From a virus, in IMG/VR virus record IMGVR_UViG_3300031774_004116, positions 1 through 22,256 of that record: a stretch of 22,256 nucleotides of DNA, one strand, 5' to 3'. Of this stretch, positions 8,416-22,256 are shown piece by piece. The first letter of the stretch is position 1. Each line of letters starts with the position of its first letter. The notes below the pieces were generated by a model. The model was not told the DNA's origin, ran no database searches, and was given only the letters and a program-made list of their open reading frames with translations. The position numbers and the translations under genes are program-made.

Positions 8416-8416
8416 G

Positions 8417-10810
8417 ATGAGCTTCTCAGATTCAAAAAAAGTGGTTATACCAAAGGCGGATCCAGTAAAAAAATACGGGAACACTTTTCAGGTGGCTAAT
8501 ATATACCTAACTCATTCAGAGTATGCGAGAGAAGATTCGATAGTGCCTGAGTTTCACACACTTTTATCCACGCATCATCAAAATTTTCAGGGCGAGGAGC
8601 TAAATTTACACTGGAACTTAAGAGAACCAAGAAATGGATTAATATATGACTCTCAAGATATATTTAAAAACTCATACATTAGTGGTTTTAATGTAGCTAT
8701 ATATGAAAACCTTGATGAAGAAAAAAGAAAAAAAGTAAGAGGCAATAGGAATAAAATATTTGAAACGAATGATTTAAGTGATAATAGCTTATTATATTAT
8801 ATAAGCGGAGACAGAAAAATAAGAAATTATTCAGTTGATGTGGAGGTTGTTGATTTTGCTGGAAATAAAAGCAGTGGAATTTTTACAACAAAAAACCCAC
8901 CGCCAGAATATACGATATTATCTGAAAGTTTTGGAAATGGTATTTTAACGATAAACTACGAAGGTCTTAAAGATACTGATGGAAACGATATATCGAATAA
9001 CTTTCAAACATTAGAGTTATATCACTTTACAGGATTAACCTCTGGGGTTAGTGGCGTGGTTAGTCAAGAGGATGACTATTTTAATACAGCTGTAAGGTCG
9101 GTTACTGGACTCAATAATAGCCTTAGTATAGAGCTTTATCCAGAAGAGTTTAATTATTTAATGCCGCTAGGAGTTGATCAATTTTCAACAGGTGAAAATA
9201 ATAATAATTACTCAGCCAGGAAGTATCAACCTTATATAAATTCATTATACGGTCAGAGAATAAGCGGGGGAGATGCTTACTATTTTACTTTCGATAAAAA
9301 TTATAGTAGTGACTCTCAGTTTGTAGAAACATGTTATGGTTTAACTGGAGAAGGTGAAACCTCTCAGGCGGTTTATGGGTATAATGATATTATATATTTA
9401 GATAGCGGTGTTATAGACTCGGAAGCATATTATGGCACTAACGAAGAGAATCAATATGTATTTGATAATTCATTATATTTTCAAGATAGTTTTTATACTG
9501 GATTATTTATAGATGCACCAAGAGAAGAAATAACTGGATATATAGGTTCTGGGGCGGGTAACTCATGGGTAAGTAATAACCCTATATATTTAGAAGAAGG
9601 TTCGGGGATATATAATGTTTACAATTATGGGTTTTATAATGCAGGCGAGCAGGCATTCTCATGCTCAACCTCTGGATTAAACGAAGAGATAGTTGGTACT
9701 TATTCTATGCCAAAAGATAACCCTAACAGCTATGATATAAAATTTAGATCAGGGGAAAGGTTTTCAAAAACATTGGAAGAGTCGGCATCTTACTTAAATG
9801 AAATTGGTGAAATGCCTGCAGTTATACTTAACCCATACCAATTAGAATTAATTAAAAAAATGGGTTACGGAAATGGGTGGGTAGGATTAAGAAGAAATAA
9901 AGTTGGTATACTTTCTGGAGTTTTTTCTGAAAGATTCTTGAATGATGAAATTTTCTTAGAGGTAGACTTTCAACAAGAATCACAAAGAACAATAGAAACC
10001 ATAAATTCTGAGAACGAAATAGAGTATGGATTAATTACGTCAAACGATGTGGGAGAGCATTGGTGTTGGGCTAATTCTAATGGAACACATATTTATAAAT
10101 ATGCGGGCAGTGGATACGGGAAAGTAAGAGAAGCTCATTTAAGTATAGATTTAAAAAATAAAGTTAGGGGTAATATTATAAGTTCATATGCAGCTACCGG
10201 AGTATCACCAATAATGGAATTCAGTGGAGTGTCTATAGATAAAAATAATAATACATTTCAGGCAAATTACACTTTTGTTGATACCTTTTATAACCCAGAA
10301 GAGCAGCAAGGATATTTAGCTAATAATTACAATGTAACAGGGATATATTTATATGGATCTGATCAACAAGATTTCAATATCTCTGAGGAAAATTTACTCG
10401 AAGTATACAGCCAAGAAAATGGAGGAATACAGAATACTATATCATATGGATTTAGTGGCGATATTAACCCTAATAAATATATTAGCATGATTCCGTTTGA
10501 TACAATAGGATCAGGTATATTACATAAAGAAGAGTTTACTTTAACGAAAGCTGCCCAGAATCATATTTTTAATTTAGACGAAGCGAAGGATGCTAACCAA
10601 AATTGGATAAGCGGATCATTTGATTACCACCACAACACCATACCAGATTTAACTTTTGGGGTTTACTATAGCGGGGACCCTGCTGGATTTACCAATATTA
10701 ATGCTACCGTTAGTGGGTCGCCTAGTGCTGAGGGGGCTGTATTCTTCTTAAGTAGCATACCAAGTGAATACGGCTACACCTTGCATGTCAACTCAGTTGA
10801 TCAAACCTAG
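8417..10810 (+). CDS. Large tail fibre-like protein with FN3-like and lectin-like parts
   Basis: This 797-residue protein directly follows gpJ and is probably part of the tail tip or a fibre. Residues about 25-160 resemble a fibronectin type III-like beta domain (LNLHWNLREPRNG, GFNVAIYE, YSVDVEVVDFAGNKSSG), continuing the style of the gpJ C-terminus. The rest is rich in Gly, Ser, Asn and Tyr, as expected for fibre beta structure. Residues about 443-560 look like a C-type-lectin-like fold: an alpha-helical SKTLEESASYLNEIGEMPAVI, GYGNGWVGLRR (483-493) and WCW (549-551). No signal peptide or transmembrane segment is seen. It may serve as the replaceable receptor-binding part. No Shine-Dalgarno is visible, so translation is probably coupled to gpJ. 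Its 3' end overlaps the convergent gene by 18 bases. Confidence 0.6.
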   Translation: MSFSDSKKVVIPKADPVKKYGNTFQVANIYLTHSEYAREDSIVPEFHTLLSTHHQNFQGEELNLHWNLREPRNGLIYDSQDIFKNSYISGFNVAIYENLDEEKRKKVRGNRNKIFETNDLSDNSLLYYISGDRKIRNYSVDVEVVDFAGNKSSGIFTTKNPPPEYTILSESFGNGILTINYEGLKDTDGNDISNNFQTLELYHFTGLTSGVSGVVSQEDDYFNTAVRSVTGLNNSLSIELYPEEFNYLMPLGVDQFSTGENNNNYSARKYQPYINSLYGQRISGGDAYYFTFDKNYSSDSQFVETCYGLTGEGETSQAVYGYNDIIYLDSGVIDSEAYYGTNEENQYVFDNSLYFQDSFYTGLFIDAPREEITGYIGSGAGNSWVSNNPIYLEEGSGIYNVYNYGFYNAGEQAFSCSTSGLNEEIVGTYSMPKDNPNSYDIKFRSGERFSKTLEESASYLNEIGEMPAVILNPYQLELIKKMGYGNGWVGLRRNKVGILSGVFSERFLNDEIFLEVDFQQESQRTIETINSENEIEYGLITSNDVGEHWCWANSNGTHIYKYAGSGYGKVREAHLSIDLKNKVRGNIISSYAATGVSPIMEFSGVSIDKNNNTFQANYTFVDTFYNPEEQQGYLANNYNVTGIYLYGSDQQDFNISEENLLEVYSQENGGIQNTISYGFSGDINPNKYISMIPFDTIGSGILHKEEFTLTKAAQNHIFNLDEAKDANQNWISGSFDYHHNTIPDLTFGVYYSGDPAGFTNINATVSGSPSAEGAVFFLSSIPSEYGYTLHVNSVDQT

Positions 10811-11602
10811 CATCACCCTAGTTTCCTTGCCTGGAATGTCTTCCCAAGAGTTAGCATCCTTAACAGCATCATTCTGATAAATGCCCTCGGTTTTTTCTTG
10901 CCACCAAGTCTTGATATATTTCTTCCTGAAGTCCTCAAAGGACTCGCAGCCAAGAGATTCCTCAGCTTTATGTTTAAGTAAGCTTGTAGGGCTAAGCGGG
11001 TTAACTCCAGACTTAGATTTTTTGCTATTATAACTAGGTGTACCAGAGGAGTCAGATTTATCTATCTCGTCGTCACCAACGATATGAACCTGAAGGAAGT
11101 TTCTCACACAACGAACAAATGCTCTGTTGCATGCTATGGTCTCTAGAAATTTTGTAGCAAAACTGCTAGTATTGTCTAATGTAGCATTAGCCATATCTTG
11201 AAACTCGACAGGACTTCCAAATGTTTCGTAATTCGACAAGAAAGTCATTTTACAGACAACAGCTACATGGTCTAGTTCACACCTTACGGTTTCATAACTT
11301 ACATCAGAAAAACCCCTCAGCTTTGCAAGCTCTTTAATTCCGCTAAGTTTTATTAAAAGCTGGTAATCTGCTAGACCATCTATAGACCGAGGTGTGTCTT
11401 TACCTCTTGATTGAAACCATCCACGGTTAGGAAATAAATGCTCTTCACCAACCATAGCCCTCCAGTTAATTGAACCATCATCATTGAAGGAATATTGTAC
11501 ATTTTTTAATAAACCATTCTCATCTCTACTAAAGAGGCTTGGTCCCAATGAATTGTCTACACTACTGTTTTCTTTACTGTCTTCTTGTTTTGTCTTCGGC
11601 AT
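10793..11602 (-). CDS. Putative ERF/Rad52-like single-strand annealing protein
   Basis: This 269-residue soluble protein has no unambiguous family signature that I can name. Its core (about 45-180) has the outline of ERF/Rad52-type phage annealing proteins: beta strands (YETVRCELDHVAVVCKMTFL), then a helix FATKFLETIACNRAFVRCVR leading to NFLQVHIVGDDEID. This resembles the conserved ERF helix that ends near acidic residues. A Ser/Lys-rich linker (about 182-203) joins it to a conserved-looking C-terminal segment with FEDFRKKYIKTWW. Such proteins anneal single strands in phage recombination and replication, which suits the nearby SSB. It begins inside the end of the GT9 gene (29-base overlap), so it belongs to the same operon. 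Other DNA-metabolism roles are possible. Confidence 0.4.
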   Translation of the reverse strand: MPKTKQEDSKENSSVDNSLGPSLFSRDENGLLKNVQYSFNDDGSINWRAMVGEEHLFPNRGWFQSRGKDTPRSIDGLADYQLLIKLSGIKELAKLRGFSDVSYETVRCELDHVAVVCKMTFLSNYETFGSPVEFQDMANATLDNTSSFATKFLETIACNRAFVRCVRNFLQVHIVGDDEIDKSDSSGTPSYNSKKSKSGVNPLSPTSLLKHKAEESLGCESFEDFRKKYIKTWWQEKTEGIYQNDAVKDANSWEDIPGKETRVMLGLIN

Positions 11603-12755
11603 AATTATATATATTTAGATAATCAATTTCTTCCCAGAAATCGTCTGTGTCAATAAACTTCTCAGGACTTCCTGATTTCTCTATGCCAGCTTTCCATGCA
11701 GCTTTACTAGAGTATTTTTTATTCTTTGACACAATGGTTTTATTACTATGATAGTAAGTATTATCGCATAGCCGTTCACAAAAGTCAAGGTCTTTTTTGG
11801 AGGTTAAATCATAACCGTTAATAACAAAGTCAAAAAATTTAAATCTATAATCATTTATTTTATTTTCGTCTTTACATATTAATGTATGTTTTATGTTTAA
11901 TGAAGATAATTGAGACAAGTAATCTACATCAATATCCGAATCATCAAGGAAAATAGTAATAGCTGCTATGTTTTTCTTGAAGTAATATAATACATTTGGA
12001 TTGATTTTTTTACTTATCATTAGGTTTACTCTTTTGTGCAGCCAGGGAGTTAACATTTCTTCATCGAGATGATAATCGCATCTAAGGTTAACCAATCGCT
12101 TTGGGTCAAAATTAGAATTAGGTTTAAAGTCAGGGACTACTTCAAGAATTTTACTATGATAATGCTTTCCAATATTTAATGTTCTATATGTATTAAATAA
12201 ATCATTATCAATATCTAATAATTCAAGAACCTCTTCGGCTACATCTTCAGGAAGAATGCCATCAATAGTTTTAGGATCTTCCTCAACGGCATATGAAGCC
12301 TTATTTCCATCTTTCGGTGAGTTTATACAGGTAGATGTATTACCCCAAATAGGCCCAGAGTTTGTGATCCACATATTAGAATAAAGCCCAACAACTGGTT
12401 TGTTGTAAGCAGATGCTAGGTGAACACAGAGACTGTCTACACCAACATGTAGAGTACTTTTCTCTACAATATAACATAATTGCTTTATGGTTGTTTTACC
12501 TCTCAGGTCTAAATCAATATTACCAGCCAATGGGTTTTCTTTTTCCCCGACCTGAACTATAGAGATATCCCCGATATATTTTTTTAACAAGTAAACAACC
12601 TGATCCCAATGAGCATAATCTCTTGATTGAAATTTATTAGTAGTTTGTATAGTAATATATTTATCTACATTAATCGGAAAATAATGAGATAGTACTGTAG
12701 GTCTAGAGATTTTAACCCCTAAGCATTTAGCGTACTCTTCAATTAAGTGACTCAT
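11574..12755 (-). CDS. GT9 heptosyltransferase-like protein: C-terminal half plus unknown domain
   Basis: The first ~180 residues of this 393-residue protein correspond to the second (nucleotide-sugar-binding) half of a GT9 ADP-heptose-type glycosyltransferase. Visible features are MSHLIEEYAKCLGV, the strand KYITIQTTN, HWDQVVYLLKKY, and the family signature VGVDSLCVHLASAYNKPVVGLYS (104-126). The matching N-terminal half is not here; it is the C-terminal end of the gene just upstream. Residues about 200-393 are an unrecognised alpha/beta region (VNLRCDYHLDEEML and following). Start ATG overlaps the upstream TGA in an ATGA arrangement, so it is either made separately by reinitiation or joined by a frameshift. 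The sugar it handles cannot be read from sequence. Confidence 0.75.
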   Translation of the reverse strand: MSHLIEEYAKCLGVKISRPTVLSHYFPINVDKYITIQTTNKFQSRDYAHWDQVVYLLKKYIGDISIVQVGEKENPLAGNIDLDLRGKTTIKQLCYIVEKSTLHVGVDSLCVHLASAYNKPVVGLYSNMWITNSGPIWGNTSTCINSPKDGNKASYAVEEDPKTIDGILPEDVAEEVLELLDIDNDLFNTYRTLNIGKHYHSKILEVVPDFKPNSNFDPKRLVNLRCDYHLDEEMLTPWLHKRVNLMISKKINPNVLYYFKKNIAAITIFLDDSDIDVDYLSQLSSLNIKHTLICKDENKINDYRFKFFDFVINGYDLTSKKDLDFCERLCDNTYYHSNKTIVSKNKKYSSKAAWKAGIEKSGSPEKFIDTDDFWEEIDYLNIYNYAEDKTRRQ

Positions 12756-12780
12756 AGATCTGAAAAAAGGTTTAGGGAGT
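12752..12780 (-). other. Junction that splits the GT9 domain: T6 run and ATGA overlap
   Basis: On the minus strand, the frame of the upstream gene runs AAC CTT TTT TCA GAT CTA TGA. The downstream ATG uses the last A of CTA, a -1 shift. The -1 frame is open from a TAA about 27 bases before the ATG, so a -1 slip anywhere in that short stretch would give one continuous protein. A run of six T (plus-strand 12763-12768) sits in it and could allow slippage. It is not a canonical X XXY YYZ heptamer in the zero frame. Alternatives are reinitiation at ATGA, a real inactivating mutation, or a sequencing error. Confidence 0.5.
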
Positions 12781-14686
12781 TAATATCCTGCCCATTATGG
12801 GTATATACAGCAGTCCTTTGGGTTGTAACATAGGGGAGGTATGCAATATCAAAATAACCCTTCCTGTGCCCTTTCCCTTCAAGGTTAAAAATATTATCAA
12901 AACTTTCGTGATACTTTAAAACTTTATGTACATCAGGGTGATCCTCAATTAAATCAAAAAAAGATGGTTTTGTAAAAAAATAAATATTTTTATTTGGGTA
13001 TAGTTTTTTAAGATTACTAATTAACGAATTAACCATAAGAACATCGCCGGCACTCTCAGGCATAACAACAGCAATTCTTTGAGAAGGATCTTCTTTATCT
13101 AAAAATTCAGATAAATCAACCGAGTCTTCTATTTTAGAATTTTCTTTATCCGCCACACTCTGGAAATATTTCAAGATTTCAGATCTACTGAACCCGCTAG
13201 AAAGTTTTTTCATCCAGTGGGCATGACCCTCATTGTCGTGAGGGTCGATATCCATATTTAAAATATTTTTATATATATCAGATAACCAAATAGAGTCATC
13301 TTTGATGTCTGGTGGATTGTATGATGCATTCCTCTTTTTTTCAGAGAAGTCAAAATCCCAGTTGGTTTTAGGCATATTGTCTAATATTTTTTCAAGTTTT
13401 CTGCCAACAACTTTAATGGAATAATTATCTATAACATACTTCCTTGCTTTTTTACCCATTTCGGATTTTTTACTAATACCCATATCGTAAACACATGATA
13501 TTTGATCCGATATACTATTGGGCGATGTACTGGCTTTTATGAATTGAGTACCAGGCTCTCTGTACTCTGTCCATTCAAGTGGAAGACCTGCACTATGGTT
13601 GGTGCAATGCTCTTCCCCACAACTATAGTTTGTGACCAATGTAACTAACTCGCAAAGCTTAGCCTCTTGAATTGGTATTTCCTGACCGCCAGAAGTAAAT
13701 GGGTGACAGTAAACATCCATTAAGTTATATATTTCGTTTAACTGAGATTCTGTAACTCCGTTTTTTACATTAGTGGTGTTTTGACTTTTTTCACTTTTGC
13801 AAAAACGACAGTCTAGCTCTTGACCTGAGTAGGGTTTAACCTCATACTGTTTACATTTATTGCAGTAATAAGTAGTTAATACATCAAACCTATCTATGTT
13901 TTTTTCCTTGATTAGTCTAGGTATATCCCAACCCTCATCCCAATGAGTATGAAGGAGTAATTTGGCATTTGAATCTGGGTGTTTAGATTTAAAGAGAGCA
14001 AAGCCATCTAGGAGGTTAGGGACACTTTTTCTTAATTGATTCCTGAATACGAAGCCTATAATGAATGCATCATTATCTATCGAGTTTCTACTTCTTAATT
14101 GACTAGAGTCAATTTTATAAAAATTATCACAATTAACTATTCCGTGTAGGGTTTTTACGTGGCTATGGCCAAGTTTAGCCATCTCACGTTCCGCGAACTC
14201 GGCCCACACGAAGTAGTTCTTTATATTATTGGCGGCATCAACCGCTAGTGGTAGCATGGGCTCTGAGTCAATAGTAGTCCATACCATGCAGTTGATTTTA
14301 TTCCACCATTTTCTTTCCCAGTAATTATTAAATGCCCATATGTCTTCAGCGCCTATGTAAATATCAGGTTTGTGTTCTTTTATTAGTTCGTCAATAGTTT
14401 CAGACCCATAACTGGCCGACCTAGCAAGACTTGGGTCTTTGTTTAACCTCGCCAGTTTTGCCTTGTCATCAGGAAGGGTGCCAACACACTTCCATGGTAA
14501 AGTTGATAAGGGTTGGTAAGATTTGGGGAATCCGTTGGCAGCTTCAATTATCTCATACTTTCCAGTAGAATAAAGGTATTGCAATACATTTTTTGAATTC
14601 TTACCGAATCCAGTAAATGACTTACAGAAGTTACTGTGGAATAGTATTTTCTTTCTACTATTTTTTTTAGAGCTTCTTTTAGTCAT
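12752..14686 (-). CDS. Multidomain glycosyltransferase: GT4 with zinc ribbon, DUF4214-like, GT9 N-half
   Basis: About 644 residues from the ATG at 14686; a TTG three bases earlier is also possible, and the numbers below count from that TTG. Residues 14-440 form a GT-B fold of the GT4 type (ILFHSNFCKSFTGFGKNS at the start; IGFVFRNQLRKSVPNLLDGF at 211-230). The usual EX7E region reads SGGQEIPIQEAK (333-344), with Gly in place of the first Glu. A zinc-ribbon-like insert, Cys276/279 and Cys294/297 (CNKC...CRFC), lies inside the second Rossmann domain. Residues 466-515 look like DUF4214 (LSDIYKNILNMDIDP, HWMKKLSSGFSRSEILKYF). Residues 537-645 are the first half of GT9 (IAVVMPESAGDVLMVNSLI). The ATG overlaps the preceding gene's stop as ATGACTAA. 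It probably acts in the cytoplasm on host or viral glycans. Confidence 0.8.
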   Translation of the reverse strand: MTKRSSKKNSRKKILFHSNFCKSFTGFGKNSKNVLQYLYSTGKYEIIEAANGFPKSYQPLSTLPWKCVGTLPDDKAKLARLNKDPSLARSASYGSETIDELIKEHKPDIYIGAEDIWAFNNYWERKWWNKINCMVWTTIDSEPMLPLAVDAANNIKNYFVWAEFAEREMAKLGHSHVKTLHGIVNCDNFYKIDSSQLRSRNSIDNDAFIIGFVFRNQLRKSVPNLLDGFALFKSKHPDSNAKLLLHTHWDEGWDIPRLIKEKNIDRFDVLTTYYCNKCKQYEVKPYSGQELDCRFCKSEKSQNTTNVKNGVTESQLNEIYNLMDVYCHPFTSGGQEIPIQEAKLCELVTLVTNYSCGEEHCTNHSAGLPLEWTEYREPGTQFIKASTSPNSISDQISCVYDMGISKKSEMGKKARKYVIDNYSIKVVGRKLEKILDNMPKTNWDFDFSEKKRNASYNPPDIKDDSIWLSDIYKNILNMDIDPHDNEGHAHWMKKLSSGFSRSEILKYFQSVADKENSKIEDSVDLSEFLDKEDPSQRIAVVMPESAGDVLMVNSLISNLKKLYPNKNIYFFTKPSFFDLIEDHPDVHKVLKYHESFDNIFNLEGKGHRKGYFDIAYLPYVTTQRTAVYTHNGQDINSLNLFSDL

Positions 14687-15233
14687 CAAATGGTTCTATA
14701 TCATTATTAAATGATTCAGTGATTTTTTTAATTCTATGAGAATAAATTCTTTCAAGCACGACAGTAAGGAAAGAAGATAGGCATTCTAACTCACCGGGCT
14801 CAAGGGGCATCTTAAATGTATTGCCACTAGCCCTGGATATACTTAAGCCAAAAGCCGGGACTACCTGTTTTTTAGTTTTGTACTCTTTAGTCTTTGGATC
14901 ATAAGATTTCATAGAAGCCTCTTTATCCCAAGGGCTGAATTTAATGGTGGTTTTAGTGTCACTAGTTTGGTGAAAGGTGTTCCATTCATACCTACTTTTA
15001 ATTGCTGAAATAATGGACCCGCATTCAAACTCGTTTAATTTAACTGTTATATTTTTTTGGGGATCATCTTTGCTACCCATGAATGTACCCCTGTGGCTTT
15101 TGGAATCCCAGGAATGCTGAAGTATTGCAGAAACAAATACTACAGGCTCTTTACTATTCTTGTCATAACCCATGGAGAAACTAAATCCGCATCCAGAGTT
15201 ATTTTTATTAGGTTTATATATTTGAACACTCAT
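14679..15233 (-). CDS. Possible ssDNA-binding protein, PC4/whirly-like, with SSB-like acidic tip
   Basis: This 184-residue protein is not firmly recognised. It shows two beta-rich blocks, each followed by a helix: VVFVSAILQHSWD ... ITVKLNEFECGSIISAIKSR, and FGLSISRASGNTFKMPLEPGELECLSSFLTVVLERIYS. This beta-sheet-then-helix outline resembles PC4/whirly-type single-strand-binding domains. The C-terminus, NDIEPFDD, looks like the acidic Phe-containing tip by which SSB proteins recruit partners. The Lys-rich middle (about 105-122) could contact nucleic acid. It sits 2 bases after the FmdB-like gene and overlaps the glycosyltransferase gene by 8 bases. The DNA-binding role is inferred from outline, tip and context. 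Confidence 0.35.
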   Translation of the reverse strand: MSVQIYKPNKNNSGCGFSFSMGYDKNSKEPVVFVSAILQHSWDSKSHRGTFMGSKDDPQKNITVKLNEFECGSIISAIKSRYEWNTFHQTSDTKTTIKFSPWDKEASMKSYDPKTKEYKTKKQVVPAFGLSISRASGNTFKMPLEPGELECLSSFLTVVLERIYSHRIKKITESFNNDIEPFDD

Positions 15234-16135: not shown

Positions 16136-17217
16136 GATTTAATAATGTTAAGTATTTTTTTGACTGTGTTATTATAATTGAAAGTATCTTTTAGTTCAAT
16201 ACCTTTTATGTTTTTATTTTTACATTTACTTATAGCCTGTTCTGTTGCTTTGTAAAAATCTTTTTCACTAAATGTATTTATGCTGCCTTGGTTAAAGTCT
16301 CCGCCTTTAGAGAAAAACACATCATCATATATTGGCTCTTTACCATTTGGGTTTACTAAAATTGAGTTTTCATTGTTCGCCCAATCTTTATGTGAGGTAG
16401 CATTTAAAACAATAGACCATTTACCTAGGCATGTCGAATTGAATGCGGGGAGGTTCCAACCCTCAGCCCCGCTTAATCCGCTAAGATTTATGTCAACCGC
16501 ATTATACAGCTCATTCATTTCAGAGTTAGTTTCAAGGTATGGTAGGAAATTGATATTTTTGTATCTTTTGCCTTCAAGGGCCTTTGCTATCAATGTAGAC
16601 ATTTGATCTTTATTAAAGAAAGGGTTTGTGATGCAGCAAGTCAACTGATAGTCGGGATTGTCTCCATATTTTTTAGCCCATAAATTAATTATTCTTTCAG
16701 TATGTTTTCTTTTCTCGAATTTACCTATGAGTCCGAATAATACTCTGTCTGACAAGTAAGTCTTACCTGTTTCAAAAAAATCTTCATCAAAGCCTATTGG
16801 TACATATTCTGTATTATCGCAGCCAGAGTCAAGGAAGCATTGCTGAGCATGAGAGCTACTAAAAATTGTTTTTGATTGAATTTCACATATAGACTTCTCT
16901 GCACTGGTTGGTTCATCTGTCTCGTAGAATGTATACAAAAAACTATTTGAACCTATATTAGATTCAGCCCCGTTAATGTGCCACATTTTTAATGTGTGAT
17001 TATCTTTTGATAAGTTGGAAAATCTATTATTATAAGAATCAGATAACCAATCTGTGAAATCTTTATCGATCTTATCGAATGCTTTTAATTCAATTTTATT
17101 ACCAACGGGAAAGAAGCATATCTTTTGATCGAGGTTATAAAGTGACCTTAACATGTTAACGGACACATTGCCGAAACTTAGAGAGTTTACTGGACCTATG
17201 AAGTTAATGTATTCCAT
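16132..17217 (-). CDS. GT4-type glycosyltransferase
   Basis: This 361-residue protein has the GT-B fold of the GT4 family. The N-terminal acceptor domain begins YINFIGPVNSLSFGNVSVNM. The C-terminal donor domain begins FGLIGKFEKRK (161-171), with the basic residues that hold nucleotide-sugar phosphates, and the helix signature AEGWNLPAFNSTCLG (251-265). The second Glu of the EX7E motif is Asn (260), so catalysis may be altered, though this position varies among phage members. Length is normal. Its ATG shares one base with the SSB stop (TAATG), so it is tightly coupled to replication genes. The sugar donor and acceptor are unknown. Confidence 0.8.
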   Translation of the reverse strand: MEYINFIGPVNSLSFGNVSVNMLRSLYNLDQKICFFPVGNKIELKAFDKIDKDFTDWLSDSYNNRFSNLSKDNHTLKMWHINGAESNIGSNSFLYTFYETDEPTSAEKSICEIQSKTIFSSSHAQQCFLDSGCDNTEYVPIGFDEDFFETGKTYLSDRVLFGLIGKFEKRKHTERIINLWAKKYGDNPDYQLTCCITNPFFNKDQMSTLIAKALEGKRYKNINFLPYLETNSEMNELYNAVDINLSGLSGAEGWNLPAFNSTCLGKWSIVLNATSHKDWANNENSILVNPNGKEPIYDDVFFSKGGDFNQGSINTFSEKDFYKATEQAISKCKNKNIKGIELKDTFNYNNTVKKILNIIKS

Positions 17218-17603
17218 TAGAAGGGCATATTTTCGGGATTAATAATTTCCTTTATACTATCAGAGGGTTCGGGACTTTCAACTGTTTCTTTTTCGTTTTC
17301 TTTCTTGCCGTTTGGTAGGAATCTAACTATATCTGCGGAGACGAAAAATCTCTGCTTGGGGCAACCATCTTTATCTTTCCATTTATTCACTTTTATTTTG
17401 CCCTCTACATAGACGCATGATCCTTTGGATAGGTATTTATTGCAATTGTCTGCAACTTTATTCCAACACTCTACATCCATAAATAAGACCTCATCCTTGG
17501 TGCTATTAATTGCGATGGGGAATATGCACTTATTGTAGCTACCCAATTCTTTTAGCTCTGGCGATTTAGTTAGATTTCCAATACCTATAAACTTATTAAT
17601 CAT
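17217..17603 (-). CDS. ssb: Single-stranded DNA-binding protein
   Basis: This 128-residue protein is a recognisable bacterial/phage SSB: an OB fold (about 1-98) starting MINKFIGIGNLTKSPELKEL, with FMDVECWNKVADNCNKYLSKGSCVYVEGKI and KQRFFVSADIVRFL, then a charged linker and the terminal tip ENMPF that binds replication and repair partners. It coats single-stranded DNA during phage replication and recombination. Its ATG overlaps the stop of the sigma-like gene (ATGA), with a GAGAAAG ribosome-binding site inside that gene. The linker is shorter than in E. coli SSB, as is common in phages. Confidence 0.93.
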   Translation of the reverse strand: MINKFIGIGNLTKSPELKELGSYNKCIFPIAINSTKDEVLFMDVECWNKVADNCNKYLSKGSCVYVEGKIKVNKWKDKDGCPKQRFFVSADIVRFLPNGKKENEKETVESPEPSDSIKEIINPENMPF

Positions 17604-18208
17604 ATTTCTTTCTCTAGTTGTTTTTTTATTTTTTTTACTGCTTTATTATGAATGTTAATACATCCCTGTATACTTAAATTTAACTCGCCGCCTATATTCT
17701 TCCATGGGGTAACCTTGTTCCCCTCTGAATCTAAATACCTAAGCTTGAATATTTTTACTATTCTTGAATCCTTATAAGTATCCGCTATTTTTAGTATTCT
17801 GTCAAGCATTTCTTTATTTACTAATGCCAACTTAACCTCATCCTTGGAATTGATGTCGTTAGTTTTTAAACAATCAAGCCCTACTTCCTTCATTGTTTTA
17901 TTTTTATTTTTATTGTATAAGTTTAGGCACATCCACCTGGTTTCATTACCTAGGTAGGTTGAAAATTTGGTGTTTCTGTCTTCGTCGTATTTTAAGGCAG
18001 CTTGGTATATGTAATAATTTTTATCCTCTATTAATTCGGATTTATACGAAGGGCCGTCGTGAAATGAATTGGGCAGATAATTATGCACCATAGTCATAAA
18101 TATTCCGCTATGCCTGGATACAAGTTCCATGAGACAGTCACCTGAGTCGTTAGTGTCTTTCATTCCGAATATTAGCTCGGAATCAGTCATTTCTTTAAAG
18201 TTTTCCAT
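17600..18208 (-). CDS. Sigma-70-family-like transcription factor
   Basis: This 202-residue protein resembles small sigma factors. The N-terminal half has a region 2-like segment, IEDKNYYIYQAALKYDEDRNTKFSTYLGNETRWM (60-93), matching the usual Gly/Ala-x-x-Lys-Tyr/Phe-Asp ... F.TYa...Ir pattern. The C-terminal half (about 130-200) ends with a helix-turn-helix of the region 4 type, PWKNIGGELNLSIQGCINIHNKAVKKIKKQL. It could direct host RNA polymerase to phage promoters. It is the first gene of the leftward operon, reads from a promoter overlapping a palindrome, and overlaps ssb by 4 bases. It could instead be a sigma-derived regulator; divergence is high. Confidence 0.65.
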   Translation of the reverse strand: MENFKEMTDSELIFGMKDTNDSGDCLMELVSRHSGIFMTMVHNYLPNSFHDGPSYKSELIEDKNYYIYQAALKYDEDRNTKFSTYLGNETRWMCLNLYNKNKNKTMKEVGLDCLKTNDINSKDEVKLALVNKEMLDRILKIADTYKDSRIVKIFKLRYLDSEGNKVTPWKNIGGELNLSIQGCINIHNKAVKKIKKQLEKEI

Positions 18209-18223
18209 ATTGAATTTTTGCTA

Positions 18224-18254
18224 TGTTAACATAATATCATATGTTATGTCAACA
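18224..18254. repeat. Imperfect 31-base palindrome in the divergent control region, operator candidate
   Basis: Arms 18224-18237 and 18241-18254 match at 12 of 14 positions around a 3-base centre. The outer parts are TGTTAACATAA and TTATGTCAACA. It overlaps the -10 of the leftward promoter for the sigma-like gene, as expected of an operator bound by a dimeric regulator. No repressor gene lies in the window apart from the sigma-like gene itself. Confidence 0.5.
18231..18239 (-). promoter_or_regulatory. Extended -10 promoter for the sigma-like gene and leftward operon
   Basis: On the minus strand, TGATATTAT is an extended -10 (TG, one base, TATTAT). No good -35 lies 17 bases upstream; TTGACA sits too close (10-base spacing), though with TAACAT downstream it could form an alternative pair at 18-base spacing. 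Either start would give a very short leader (under about 20 bases) before the ATG at 18208. The element sits inside the palindrome at 18224-18254. Confidence 0.45.
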
Positions 18255-18305
18255 TTATTATGAGGTTTACGATAGATATATATAAGATTACCGTAAGGTA
18301 TATAT

Positions 18306-18326
18306 CCTTAAACATAAAGTTTAAGG
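18306..18326. repeat. Perfect 8-bp inverted repeat with 5-base loop
   Basis: CCTTAAAC and GTTTAAGG flank ATAAA. There is no U-tract after it on either strand and stem GC is low, so it looks more like a protein-binding site or weak mRNA/DNA hairpin than an intrinsic terminator. It lies just upstream of the putative rightward promoter. Confidence 0.45.
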
Positions 18327-18331
18327 AATAA

Positions 18332-18342
18332 TATTATAACAT
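18332..18342 (+). promoter_or_regulatory. Promoter-like TATTATAACAT before the sugar cassette
   Basis: This 11-mer, identical to 1318-1328, ends 11 bases before the ATG at 18354. TATTAT or TATAAC would be the -10; upstream sequence offers only a poor -35. It is the only candidate for driving the rightward nonulosonate genes. There is no clear Shine-Dalgarno between it and the ATG. Confidence 0.35.
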
Positions 18343-18353
18343 AAAATCAAAAA

Positions 18354-19121
18354 ATGTCAAGTAAAAAAATGTATCCAACTAATGATAGCCTATTAAGTAG
18401 CCTCAAGGACCTTTTTAAGGGGGAGACCGTGGTTATCCTGGGGTGCTCCCCCTATATTACTTCAATAGATAGAATTGCTCTTGAAGATGTGTGCAGGAAT
18501 AACAGGGTTATATCATTAAAACAATCTTATTTATTGTTTCCCGATTTAGTTGATATTCATATTTATAACTGCTGTAATATACAGAGGTACGAATATGGGG
18601 ATAGTAAACCAATAGTAATAGAGAGCTCAAGCGCCCCGCCGTCAATTAATGATTTTGATTTATTCTTTATGGTCAAGGAAAGAGATAAACGCAAGAGTGT
18701 ATCGTGGGTATGCAATCAGGAGAAAAGTTTCAGTGAGATCGACAAGTGGTCTATTACCAACTCATCTAATCCTTACTTGAGGCCATATGGCCCCGGCATA
18801 ATGACTGAAATAGTATTTTATTTATGCGAACATCTAGGGGTATCAAAAATAGTATTAATTGGTTGTGATAATAAATCCATGGATAATGTAACACATTTTT
18901 ACAGAGATAATAATAATCATTCAGGTCTTACATTTAATGATCCTCATGCTAGCTCCCCTTGGGTTGACTTTAATGAAGAGAAGTTACTTTTCCTTAATTC
19001 AATGGTTTATTGGCAGCAATGGTTATCGACCAAAAACATTATCATTGAAAATGCATCCAAGTTTCATTATTATCCTAAAACAATTAATCATATAGATGTG
19101 AATGAAATTAATTCAAGATAA
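18354..19121 (+). CDS. MAF/DUF115- or GT42-like putative nonulosonate transferase
   Basis: This 255-residue protein has a Rossmann-like start, ETVVILGCSPYITSID (28-43), then VISLKQSYLLFPDLVDIHIYN and PYGPGIMTEIVFYLCEHLGVSKIVLIGCDN, followed by a histidine (THFY). This order (nucleotide-binding loop, 'L..FP....' segment, G-x-x-x helix, LG..KI.LIG.D) is shared by the MAF_flag10/DUF115 proteins and GT42 sialyltransferases, which move CMP-activated sialic-acid-like sugars onto flagellin or lipooligosaccharide. It leads a tightly overlapping operon of nonulosonic acid genes (20-base overlap with the next), which supports a transferase role. Similarity is at motif level only; a related methyl- or nucleotidyl-type Rossmann protein is possible. 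Confidence 0.5.
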   Translation: MSSKKMYPTNDSLLSSLKDLFKGETVVILGCSPYITSIDRIALEDVCRNNRVISLKQSYLLFPDLVDIHIYNCCNIQRYEYGDSKPIVIESSSAPPSINDFDLFFMVKERDKRKSVSWVCNQEKSFSEIDKWSITNSSNPYLRPYGPGIMTEIVFYLCEHLGVSKIVLIGCDNKSMDNVTHFYRDNNNHSGLTFNDPHASSPWVDFNEEKLLFLNSMVYWQQWLSTKNIIIENASKFHYYPKTINHIDVNEINSR

Positions 19122-20076
19122 AAAAATTCTTATAACTGGAGCGACAGGCTCCTTAGGCCAGGCATTAGTTGGTAAATTAATAAATTTTAACTGCAAGATC
19201 ATTGCATACAGTAGGGACGAAGGCAAACATGCTAACCTTTTTTCAAATAATCCTAATATTATTTCCGTCATTGGAGATGTCAGGGATTACGATAAATTAA
19301 ACACATCTATAAGAATTCATCAACCTGACTATATTATTCATGCAGCTGCATTAAAGCGCATTGATGATATGGAGTTTTACCCCGACGAATGCATCAAGAC
19401 AAATATTAATGGTTCCGATAATGTAGCGCGTGCAGCTTTATCTAATAATATCAAAAAATGTATTTTAGTATCCACAGACAAGGCATGCCAACCTGTCAAT
19501 GTATATGGGTCTAGTAAATTTATTGCAGAAAGGTTATTTACCAACTATGATTTCAATTCGACAGGTACAGTTTTTGCTTCAATCAGGTACGGAAATGTAA
19601 TTGCCTCAAGAGGCTCATTTATTCCATTATGGATCGATATGATAAAAAGGGGTAAAACCCTAAGTGTTACATCCAAAGATATGACCAGATTCCTATTTAC
19701 TCTTAATGATGCAGTAGATGCCGTACTCGGAGCTCTTGAAAACTGCATAGGTGGAGAAGTTTTTGTGCCTCAGATTAATTCATACACTTTACCCTCATGT
19801 ATAAAAGCTCTAGAGAGGGCTTTAGAATTAAAAGCTTCCACAAAAATTACAGGTTTAAGGCCTGGAGAGAAATTGCATGAGGACATGTTAGCGGAAACGG
19901 AACTTCCTTTTACATATAAAGTTCCTAAAATTAACTTACTTCAAATTAGACCTCAATATACAAAAAATAAATTCCAAAATTTCCCTAAATATGATGGACC
20001 TCACTTTAATTCTAAGTTATGGGTCCAAGAAGATGTTGATAGCTTAGTTAAATTAATAAAATCTGGTCTTAAATGA
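19102..20076 (+). CDS. pseB: PseB-type UDP-GlcNAc 4,6-dehydratase (5-epimerase)
   Basis: This 324-residue protein is an extended short-chain dehydrogenase. It has the NAD(P)-binding loop TGATGSLG (12-19), catalytic Thr125-Asp126-Lys127 and Tyr135-x3-Lys139 (STDKACQPVNVYGSSK), MTRF (194-197) and RPGEKLHE (253-260), the last two typical of soluble PseB/FnlA-type enzymes. These convert UDP-GlcNAc to a 4-keto-6-deoxy sugar, the first step toward pseudaminic acid and also used in other amino sugar routes (LegB, FnlA). It is soluble, with no membrane helices, at the usual length. It starts inside the preceding gene and its stop overlaps the aminotransferase start (ATGA). Which epimer it makes cannot be decided here. 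Confidence 0.88.
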   Translation: MKLIQDKKILITGATGSLGQALVGKLINFNCKIIAYSRDEGKHANLFSNNPNIISVIGDVRDYDKLNTSIRIHQPDYIIHAAALKRIDDMEFYPDECIKTNINGSDNVARAALSNNIKKCILVSTDKACQPVNVYGSSKFIAERLFTNYDFNSTGTVFASIRYGNVIASRGSFIPLWIDMIKRGKTLSVTSKDMTRFLFTLNDAVDAVLGALENCIGGEVFVPQINSYTLPSCIKALERALELKASTKITGLRPGEKLHEDMLAETELPFTYKVPKINLLQIRPQYTKNKFQNFPKYDGPHFNSKLWVQEDVDSLVKLIKSGLK

Positions 20077-21113
20077 AATTATTTTTAACTAAATTTTCCA
20101 ACGAACACTCATTAAAAGCTTTAGACTTAATCAAAGAAGGTGATATAGGGTTCGGTAAATTATCTACTGAATTCGAGAACCAATTTAAAATTCAATCTAA
20201 AAAGAAATATAATATCTCTACAAACTCTGCCAGCGCATCTGCATTCATGATATTTGATTATCTAAAAGATGTGTACGGCGAATGCAATGTATACACTCCA
20301 TCATTAGCTTTCACTTCTCCAGTTTGGGCCGCCAAGCATCATGGCCATAATATAATATTTACAGATGTTAATAGTGATCTAGTTTTCGATAGTTCTGATT
20401 ATTTGAGCAAACGTGCCTCTAGTGACAAAAGAAAAACTATTGTCATGCCTATACTTTACGGTGGTATAAGCAACATACCGCAACTGAAATTAAAAGGAGA
20501 TGAAATAGTGGTGGTAGATTCAGCTCATTGTGTCTCACCAAAAATTAAATCTGACTTTACTTTTTTCTCATTCCATCCATATAAGCCTATTTGCTCAAGT
20601 GATGGTGGCATGATTAGTACCGACGATAAAAAAGCTAGTGATTTCTTCAGGCAATATAGAAACTTTGGCAGGAAAAATATAGAAAACTCCTATGACATTG
20701 TCCAGTCAGGTTTTAAATTTTACATGAACAACCTAAATGCCTGTCTTGCTCTTGAAAGCCTTAAAACTCACAAGGAAAGATTAAAAGAGCGCAAGGACAA
20801 TTTTAATTCACTTAAAAGCAGAATAGGTATATTTGGTGACATTCTATTTAATGCAAAATTACTCAGTCATGATAAAGATAGCTCTTACTATTTTGCCACC
20901 GTTATAGCTGATAACAACAATAGAGATAAATTAAAAAAAATCTATCCAACATCAACACACTATCCACTACTTCATAAAACAAAGTATTTTAAGTCTGAAG
21001 TAAAACTTAATAATTCAGAATCTATATATGATAATATAATTAATATTCCATTATATAGTGACAATCAATCATCTATTTCTGACATTTGGGCAGATTCCAT
21101 AATCTTAAATTAA
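20073..21113 (+). CDS. DegT/DnrJ/EryC1-family sugar aminotransferase, PseC-like
   Basis: This 346-residue PLP enzyme belongs to the DegT/DnrJ/EryC1/StrS family. The PLP lysine is Lys171 (SFHPYKPICSSDGGM), and Asp149 (VVVDSAH) would hold the pyridine nitrogen. TNSASAS (50-56) forms the phosphate-binding loop. By context it aminates the 4-keto sugar made by the preceding dehydratase, giving UDP-4-amino-4,6-dideoxy sugar. It is somewhat shorter than typical members (about 370-390). Overlap with pseB is 4 bases, and the next gene starts one base after its stop. Substrate specificity is inferred. Confidence 0.85.
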   Translation: MKLFLTKFSNEHSLKALDLIKEGDIGFGKLSTEFENQFKIQSKKKYNISTNSASASAFMIFDYLKDVYGECNVYTPSLAFTSPVWAAKHHGHNIIFTDVNSDLVFDSSDYLSKRASSDKRKTIVMPILYGGISNIPQLKLKGDEIVVVDSAHCVSPKIKSDFTFFSFHPYKPICSSDGGMISTDDKKASDFFRQYRNFGRKNIENSYDIVQSGFKFYMNNLNACLALESLKTHKERLKERKDNFNSLKSRIGIFGDILFNAKLLSHDKDSSYYFATVIADNNNRDKLKKIYPTSTHYPLLHKTKYFKSEVKLNNSESIYDNIINIPLYSDNQSSISDIWADSIILN

Positions 21114-21114
21114 A

Positions 21115-22095
21115 ATGAAAACCTTTGTTATAGCTGAAGCTGGCTCAAATCATAATAATAATTTCGAACAAGCCAAATCCTTAATTAATGTTGCTAAATA
21201 TTCTGGTGCATCCGCATGCAAATTTCAAACATATTCATCAGATACACTATACAGTAAAAATACCCCCGATTTCGCAGGTTATAAAAACATAAGTAAATTA
21301 ATTGATGATATAAAGCTTCCTAGAGATTGGCAAAAACCCCTCAAAGAATATTGTGATCAAGTCGGCATTGAATTTATGTCAACCCCATTCGATGAAAAGG
21401 CGGTCGAAGAACTAGTAAACTTAAAAGTTAAAAGGTTAAAAATCTCCGGATTTGAGTCTACAGATTTTAGATTCATAGAGATGGTCGCCTCGTCTAAATT
21501 GCCATTAATTATTTCACTAGGGATAGGTTTCAGAATGAATCTTATAGGGAGAATTTTCGACATAGCAGATAAATATGGAAATGATTTAAGTTTCATGCAT
21601 TGCAATAATGCCTACCCAACCCCAATCGAAGATGCCGGAATCAATATTGTAAAACAATTATCCAATGACGGTTGCTACCGATGGGGCCTATCAGACCACA
21701 CAGAGAGTGTGCTCACTCCAGCATTAGCAGTCGCAGTAGGAGCTTCAATCATAGAAAAGCATTTTACTTTAAGCAGGAGGCTTCCTGGCCCCGATCATTT
21801 GTTCGCACTAGAACCAAAAGAACTTCGTGAAATGGTTAATCATATTCATTTCGCAGAAAAATCAATTCAACATAAAAATAGCGACAATTTATCTAAATCT
21901 GAAATTAAATTTAAAAATGCCATGAGGTCAGTGGTTGCAAAAGCCGAAATCAACAAGGGCGAAAAATTAACAATTAAAAACATCACCACAAAAAGGCCCT
22001 TCATCGAAGGGAATATCCCCGCCCAAGACTTTCACCTAATGTTAGGTACTAAATCTAATAAATTTTATAAAAAAGACGACTTCATATGCAATTAA
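21115..22095 (+). CDS. NeuB/PseI-family nonulosonic acid synthase
   Basis: This 326-residue protein condenses a 6-deoxy-hexosamine (or ManNAc) with phosphoenolpyruvate to form a nine-carbon sialic-acid-like sugar. Family motifs are all visible: AEAGSNHN (7-14), KFQTYSSDTL (36-45), STPFD (89-93), HCNNAYPTP (162-170), LSDHTES (192-198) and EKHFTLSRRLPGPDH (214-228). His195 and His216 are the likely metal ligands. A C-terminal SAF (antifreeze-like) domain follows (about 270-322, MRSVVAKAEINKGE). Whether the product is pseudaminic, legionaminic or N-acetylneuraminic acid cannot be read from motifs alone; the upstream PseB-type enzyme favours pseudaminic. Its end overlaps the next gene by 10 bases. 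Confidence 0.9.
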   Translation: MKTFVIAEAGSNHNNNFEQAKSLINVAKYSGASACKFQTYSSDTLYSKNTPDFAGYKNISKLIDDIKLPRDWQKPLKEYCDQVGIEFMSTPFDEKAVEELVNLKVKRLKISGFESTDFRFIEMVASSKLPLIISLGIGFRMNLIGRIFDIADKYGNDLSFMHCNNAYPTPIEDAGINIVKQLSNDGCYRWGLSDHTESVLTPALAVAVGASIIEKHFTLSRRLPGPDHLFALEPKELREMVNHIHFAEKSIQHKNSDNLSKSEIKFKNAMRSVVAKAEINKGEKLTIKNITTKRPFIEGNIPAQDFHLMLGTKSNKFYKKDDFICN

Positions 22096-22256
22096 GACCT
22101 GCAAACTTTAATGATTGGCAGCATCTACTAAAGTGGAGAAATGATCCTATCGCTAGATTAAACTCATTCGACCAGGATATTATCTCTGAGGATATTCATA
22201 AAAAATGGTTAAAAGCTAGCTTACTGAATAAACAGAGAAAGATCCTAATAATGGAA
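22086..22256 (+). CDS. GNAT acetyltransferase, PseH-like, cut by window end
   Basis: Only the first 57 codons are present. MQLRPANFNDWQHLLKWRND (residues 1-20) and ISEDIHKKWLKASL are typical of the GNAT acetyltransferases, such as PseH, that N-acetylate the UDP-4-amino sugar intermediate in pseudaminic acid synthesis. The ATG at 22086 lies within the end of the synthase gene, as with the other cassette genes. The acetyl-CoA-binding motif lies outside the window. Confidence 0.7.
   Translation, partial: MQLRPANFNDWQHLLKWRNDPIARLNSFDQDIISEDIHKKWLKASLLNKQRKILIME

Follow-up and report, generated by a model that had tools for sequence, protein, structure and literature searches.

Why would a bacteriophage carry the genes to make a sialic-acid-like sugar? 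The question is raised by the IMG/VR virus record IMGVR_UViG_3300031774_004116, whose 22,256 bases, without stated completeness, form the window that was analyzed here. On its plus strand, at 18354-22256, five close-packed genes run up to the right contig end. Four resemble enzymes of nonulosonic (sialic-acid-like) sugar synthesis, and the first is a candidate for the transferase that places the product. At least 50 other uncultivated phages bear versions of this cassette. It is probable that such phages place a sialic-acid-like sugar on their own particles or on their host.

Enzymes of the cassette

A first-pass annotation of this DNA had described a transferase-like protein, a PseB-type dehydratase, a DegT aminotransferase, a NeuB/PseI synthase, and a PseH-like acetyltransferase. 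The open reading frame (ORF) map and searches of Pfam and NCBIfam show that this description is correct. ORF1 (18354-19121, 255 amino acids) is followed by a PseB-type UDP-N-acetylglucosamine (UDP-GlcNAc) 4,6-dehydratase of the C5-inverting class, a short-chain dehydrogenase/reductase (19102-20076, 324 amino acids; Polysacc_synt_2, PF02719, E 2e-80). Next come a DegT/DnrJ/EryC1 aminotransferase dependent on pyridoxal phosphate (PLP), in the position of PseC (20073-21113, 346 amino acids; PF01041, E 1e-35), and a NeuB/PseI-family nonulosonic acid synthase with a SAF domain (21115-22095, 326 amino acids; PF03102, E 1e-64). The last gene, a GNAT N-acetyltransferase in the position of PseH (22086 to beyond 22256), is cut at the contig end, leaving 57 codons of its 5' part. 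The genes overlap by 20 (ORF1/PseB), 4 (PseB/DegT), and 10 (NeuB/GNAT) bases, with a one-base gap from DegT to NeuB.

Hidden Markov model searches of each protein gave Pse and Neu families as best NCBIfam matches, though below equivalog cut-offs, in agreement with the nonulosonate-type enzymes that had been proposed. These best matches are PseB, PseC, NeuB_NnaB/PseI, and, for the fragment, PseH. The dehydratase scores 268 bits against TIGR03589, where the cut-off is 408, and its best match in the PDB is 2gn4, a UDP-GlcNAc C6 dehydratase. The aminotransferase reaches 90 bits against PseC (cut-off 424); its membership in the DegT family is certain, and K171, likely the PLP lysine, is invariant in 38/38 homologues. 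NeuB_NnaB outscores PseI for the synthase, both below cut-off. The acetyltransferase fragment matches PseH (TIGR03585) at E 1.7e-5, and a full-length homologue in the related contig 3300025621_001306 does so at E 1e-9, with 38.6 bits against a cut-off of 93.

The active sites say more about the kind of sugar. The STDK motif and Y135 of the PseB-type protein are invariant in all 66 phage homologues; CapE has Met at the position of the tyrosine. Alignment of the synthase to PseI (8h2c) and NeuB (1xuu) finds the catalytic positions conserved. Synthases of Pse pathways carry Phe at a specificity position where those of Neu and Leg pathways carry Gly (PMC7371886). The corresponding residue here, F113, is Phe in 47/47 members of the phage clade to which the window's NeuB belongs (clade support 0.98). 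Both the invariant PseB tyrosine and the Phe at the NeuB specificity position speak for a nonulosonic acid of the pseudaminic type.

Linkage to phage genomes

Genes of this kind could, of course, reach a viral contig through an error of assembly. The cassette is separated by a divergent intergenic region of 145 bases (18209-18353, with inverted repeats) from three genes on the minus strand: a weakly matched sigma-70-ECF-like ORF (17600-18208; TIGR02937, 31 bits, cut-off 43; syntenic in relatives), a phage single-stranded DNA-binding protein (SSB; 17217-17603; PF00436, E 2e-19; phrog_44, E 1e-23), and a phage glycosyltransferase (16132-17217; phrog_2170, E 2e-18; syntenic homologue 67% identical). 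Lambda-type tail genes, a J-like protein among them, lie left of the cassette.

Viral contigs were scanned with alignments of NeuB and PseB, which gave 73 different contigs from IMG/VR, the longest ~160 kb. Two of these, 3300020166_001708 and 3300025621_001306, keep the whole arrangement of glycosyltransferase, SSB, and sigma-like gene divergent from ORF1, PseB, DegT, and NeuB. In a third, 3300026083_000350, the junction is kept as far as PseB. Further, comparison of 18 larger genes shows 3300025621_001306 (75 kb) to be colinear with the window in every one, with identities of 38-75%; it also encodes a phage-type DNA polymerase, a primase, a DnaB-like helicase, and a UvsX-like recombinase. Thus, tail proteins in the window and replication genes in its colinear relative mark a tailed phage. 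Because the junction is repeated in three contigs and the 75 kb contig is colinear, the arrangement is due neither to chance nor to misassembly; the same evidence excludes a phage-bacterium chimera, and the contig is viral, as first supposed, with no join to a bacterial chromosome near 18.2 kb.

A further long island lies in the 75 kb relative between about 20.7 and 40.2 kb; probable sulfotransferase, methyltransferase, and glycosyltransferase-like genes were recognized there by eye.

Recurrence, probable exchange, and origin

PseB and the main NeuB family occur together in 57 contigs. A cytidylyltransferase accompanies them in 54 of these, an aminotransferase in 52, and a GNAT or formyltransferase in 52. 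No cassette has both types of aminotransferase, DegT being found in 37 and class III in 15. Only the class III enzyme is accompanied by a Gfo/Idh oxidoreductase (15/15). The identity of PseB to its counterpart in the window differs between these two cassette types, whereas that of NeuB does not. This is as expected if the front part of the cassette is swapped as a module. At least two unrelated phage backbones carry the cassette, the 75 kb relative and a T4-like phage, which have different DNA polymerase families; the NeuB of the T4-like phage is nevertheless 69% identical to that of the window.

For most close pairs, the ratio of nonsynonymous to synonymous substitution rates (dN/dS) is 0.04-0.1, and the others reach up to 0.24; the exception is one pair with only four changes. 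Such low ratios indicate purifying selection, and thus that the cassette genes are maintained.

Where did the genes come from? The best NeuB proteins of Pseudomonadota (398, 385, and 369 genomes) are ~39% identical to that of the window, with one exception at 59%, while those of phages reach 76%. The exception (genome G759, C75, 9376-10392) is a solitary phage-type NeuB between gltX and other housekeeping genes, without a cassette. Because this copy sits on a chromosome, the NeuB clade is not strictly viral. The bacterial sampling comprised Pseudomonadota genomes alone, and the genes may for that reason still have a bacterial source. An initial scan of genome contigs with strict peptides returned only Nitrincola, at 38%. 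Phage synthases also form a separate clade, whose 28 members include those of a huge phage (484 kb) and of a marine virus in the Kyanoviridae; this implies that phages have captured the synthase repeatedly. Named phage records hold little that is close: three NeuB matches of at most 30%, PseB matches of at most 43%, and none for ORF1. One of the three NeuB matches, FPLJ01000048.1, was false, being a capsule contig of Moritella viscosa filed among phage records.

The continuation and the candidate transferases

The contig ends inside the GNAT gene, but relatives show what may follow. In 3300025621_001306, NeuB is succeeded by GNAT (PseH best match), a cytidylyltransferase, an MptE-like protein (family f46), a GDP-mannose dehydratase, and a GDP-fucose synthase. 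The cytidylyltransferase has PseF as its best NCBIfam match (E 3e-9, below cut-off), so that the PseF-like cytidine monophosphate (CMP) transferase that had been expected to the right is indeed found in relatives, beyond GNAT.

ORF1 was harder to place. It has no Pfam match, and sequence and profile searches against the PDB gave nothing useful. For this reason its fold was predicted. The AlphaFold model, built with 14 phage homologues, has a mean predicted local distance difference test (pLDDT) of 85.6, and its best match in the PDB is the Maf glycosyltransferase 5mu5 (E 3.4e-4, prob 1.00, TMq 0.47), with MptE next. The guess that the first gene encodes a transferase is strengthened by this Maf-like prediction. 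Maf-type enzymes work in the cytoplasm, on protein. Maf itself is a nonulosonate O-transferase for flagellin that uses CMP donors (PMC11339370).

The ORF1 family is present in 16 of 76 contigs. A second candidate transferase family, f13, belongs to the same kind of cassette and is present in 32 of these contigs. The predicted fold of f13 (pLDDT 84.7) matches human ST8SiaIII (E 1.4e-4, prob 1.00), MptE, and other GT29 enzymes including ST6GalNAc2 and ST6Gal1. A fold of the Maf_flag10/sialyltransferase-like type is thereby predicted for both ORF1 (5mu5) and f13 (ST8SiaIII), with modest template modeling (TM) scores. By sequence, ORF1 does not match the Maf family PF01973, and f13 and f46 match it only below cut-off. 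The three Maf/MptE-type families together occur in 51/76 contigs, a mixed cluster (f23) being left out of the count. Of the ORFs that lie no more than 5 kb from synthase or PseB genes, they make up 79 of 1081, and of those farther away 0 of 491, a contrast that is partly selected, because the families were chosen by looking near cassettes. The ORF1 family was found here only in phages; its profile had no match in 349 Pseudomonadota genomes, in a search without a positive control.

A different arrangement was seen in the huge phage LR756508.1 (484 kb), where a NeuB-like gene lies among four ORFs of one family (region 7247-12068) that look by eye like GT29 sialyltransferases (VGNS...VGSRT motifs).

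What the cassette might do

The explanation that we favor, with somewhat more confidence than doubt, is that the cassette makes and uses a CMP-activated pseudaminic-acid-like sugar, which ORF1 attaches in the cytoplasm, most likely to a virion protein. Here, the PseB-type dehydratase and DegT aminotransferase would convert UDP-GlcNAc to a UDP-4-amino sugar, which GNAT would acylate. A hydrolase not visibly encoded by the phage, either the PseG of the host or some other enzyme, would release the sugar. The NeuB/PseI-type synthase would then condense the freed sugar with phosphoenolpyruvate, and the cytidylyltransferase that adjoins GNAT in relatives would charge the resulting nonulosonic acid with CMP. 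Finally, ORF1, a small Maf-like protein, would move the sugar to protein in the cytoplasm, giving decorated particles. Modification of protein, most likely of the virion, is placed first because the cassette has no recognized genes for export or polymerization. What the sequences themselves show is gene content, linkage to phage genes, recurrence, conservation of catalytic residues, purifying selection, and predicted folds; the identity of the sugar, its release by hydrolysis, the donor and acceptor of ORF1, and the benefit are inferred.

Several points weigh against this reading. Every cassette enzyme falls below its curated equivalog cut-off, and the second discriminating position of the synthase holds Asn, where Pse-type enzymes have Ser; for these two reasons the sugar cannot be called firmly. 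PseG (TIGR03590) has no match at E<=0.01 in any of the 49 cassette-bearing phage records, nor do they contain a NeuC/LegG-type Epimerase_2 above cut-off, although control genomes were positive in both searches. This means that the pathway is incomplete as encoded. MptE, a pterin kinase, fits ORF1 almost as well as Maf does. The transferase fold matches, with TM-scores of about 0.4-0.5, are modest, and therefore indicate a fold class rather than prove an activity. Lastly, no acceptor of ORF1 was identified.

The first-pass annotation had predicted a PseG-like hydrolase to the right if the pathway is complete. None follows in relatives, and this part of its interpretation is not supported; the phage contig, the nonulosonate-type enzymes, the cytidylyltransferase, and the transferase guess are. 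The simplest guess is that PseG of the host cuts the UDP-sugar before the NeuB step. A metallo-beta-lactamase-fold protein of ~443 amino acids (family f35) lies beside PseB or the cytidylyltransferase in 10 phage contigs, for example 3300023179_006682; it could be a CMP-sugar hydroxylase-like enzyme or a candidate for the missing hydrolase.

A bolder generalization would be that a virus-adapted nonulosonate system is common to uncultivated phages of diverse kinds, that phage-specific Maf-like transferases sialylate their virions, and that the sugar is made by an undescribed route without PseG. This we offer only tentatively, and at present it seems doubtful.

Alternative explanations

The main rival keeps the same pathway and changes the acceptor: during infection, the sugar would be put on flagellin or a surface polysaccharide of the host, so that receptors are altered and other phages are kept out. 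Phage enzymes that modify nonulosonates in the host capsule are known (PMC12053666; PMC6586298), other glycosyltransferase-like genes lie nearby, some of them like GT9 heptosyltransferases, and Maf itself targets flagellin. However, neither the cassette nor its continuation showed a flippase, a polymerase, or a clear membrane transferase in a search that was not exhaustive. Further, if the phage is lytic, remodeling a dying host would be of little use. Thus, the rival is a serious possibility, and clearly a less likely one than decoration of a virion protein.

A second alternative holds that no nonulosonic acid is made. PseB and DegT would instead supply another glycan with a UDP-4-amino-4,6-dideoxy sugar, and the aldose condensed by the NeuB homologue would be a different one. 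The missed cut-offs, the lack of a hydrolase to link the UDP-sugar to the synthase, and the behavior of PseB, which follows the type of aminotransferase where NeuB does not, are all what this view would lead one to expect. What makes it improbable is the company that the synthase keeps. With PseB, it occurs together with a cytidylyltransferase in 54/57 contigs, and it is the nonulosonate pattern to find a CMP transferase adjoining a synthase of the NeuB family; the candidate transferases, in turn, have predicted folds of the sialyltransferase type.

Might the sugar modify the DNA of the phage? We know of no nonulosonates on DNA. The window shows no base-modifying enzyme, and the predicted folds of the candidate transferases are like those of sialyltransferases for protein or glycan. 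Other viral glycosyltransferases that hypermodify DNA do exist, as cited in PMC12619734, and yet the idea must be considered very improbable here. Least credible of all is that bacterial surface-glycan genes were misassembled onto a phage or ride as passing cargo without phage function: such genes do belong to bacterial glycan islands, and for that reason surveys of auxiliary metabolic genes exclude contigs bearing them (PMC11360552), but the shared junction, full colinearity with the 75 kb phage contig, purifying selection, and the greater closeness of phage homologues than of Pseudomonadota ones speak against it.

Other features of the window

In the divergent region, the minus strand at 18360-18333 holds a 12/12 match to a sigma-70 promoter (TTGACA-16-TATAAT, with extended -10) that overlaps the ORF1 start and is directed leftwards into the sigma/SSB operon. 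A GT9 heptosyltransferase-like domain appears to be split, its N-terminal part ending a GT4/DUF4214 protein (12752-14689) and its C-terminal part lying in 11574-12755; in 3300025621_001306 an additional ORF of 135 amino acids stands between the two halves. At 2-1270, an FGE-sulfatase/C-type-lectin-like ORF (phrog_18508, E 7e-41) is open at the contig start. Toward its C terminus (RGGSY...GFRVA) it is similar to the variable region in targets of diversity-generating retroelements; the window has no visible reverse transcriptase.

Comparison with known systems

The open-access papers searched gave no report of a recurrent phage nonulosonate cassette with its own transferases, only of single genes or modifying enzymes. 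If the proposal is true, phages go beyond altering such sugars of the host: they make one themselves and bring special enzymes for attaching it. Sialylation of virions or virocells then becomes testable, the scattered pseI/neuB genes of marine viromes are explained, and a group of small transferases joins the sialyltransferase/Maf group. It would also mean that unrelated phages share glycan cassettes in the form of modules, in a gene class that auxiliary metabolic gene surveys tend to filter out (PMC11360552).

The closest known pathway is the bacterial PseB-C-H-G-I-F route. The cassette shares with it a PseB-type dehydratase, an aminotransferase, a GNAT, a NeuB/PseI synthase with Phe at the specificity position, and, in relatives, a cytidylyltransferase. 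It differs in being on phage genomes, in having enzymes below the equivalog cut-offs, in lacking PseG across 49 records, and in that some phages replace DegT by a class III aminotransferase with a Gfo/Idh oxidoreductase. Likewise, ORF1 resembles the Maf flagellin transferases (PF01973, MptE-like) in its best predicted fold match, 5mu5, and in standing beside nonulosonate genes. It departs from them as a single domain of 255 amino acids with no Pfam match and no known flagellin partner, with a TM-score of 0.47 and MptE almost equal.

Among viruses, pseI and neuB have been reported from marine viromes, listed singly as auxiliary metabolic genes, with motility as one suggested role (PMC6359870, PMC3877843). 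These too are NeuB/PseI-family synthases in marine viral sequence, but isolated genes, without a cassette, a transferase, or a phage lineage. Mycobacteriophage virions, according to work cited in PMC12619734, are glycosylated on capsid and tail tube; this is a precedent for glycans on phage particles, although the sugars, enzymes, and hosts differ from those of the cassette phages. Last, prophages of Acinetobacter baumannii encode nonulosonate modifiers, EpaA/EpaB and O-acetyltransferases (PMC12053666, PMC6586298). There also, phage genes act on nonulosonic acids. Those enzymes, however, act on a sugar or capsule that the host has made, whereas the phage cassette described here brings genes for synthesis together with its own candidate transferases.

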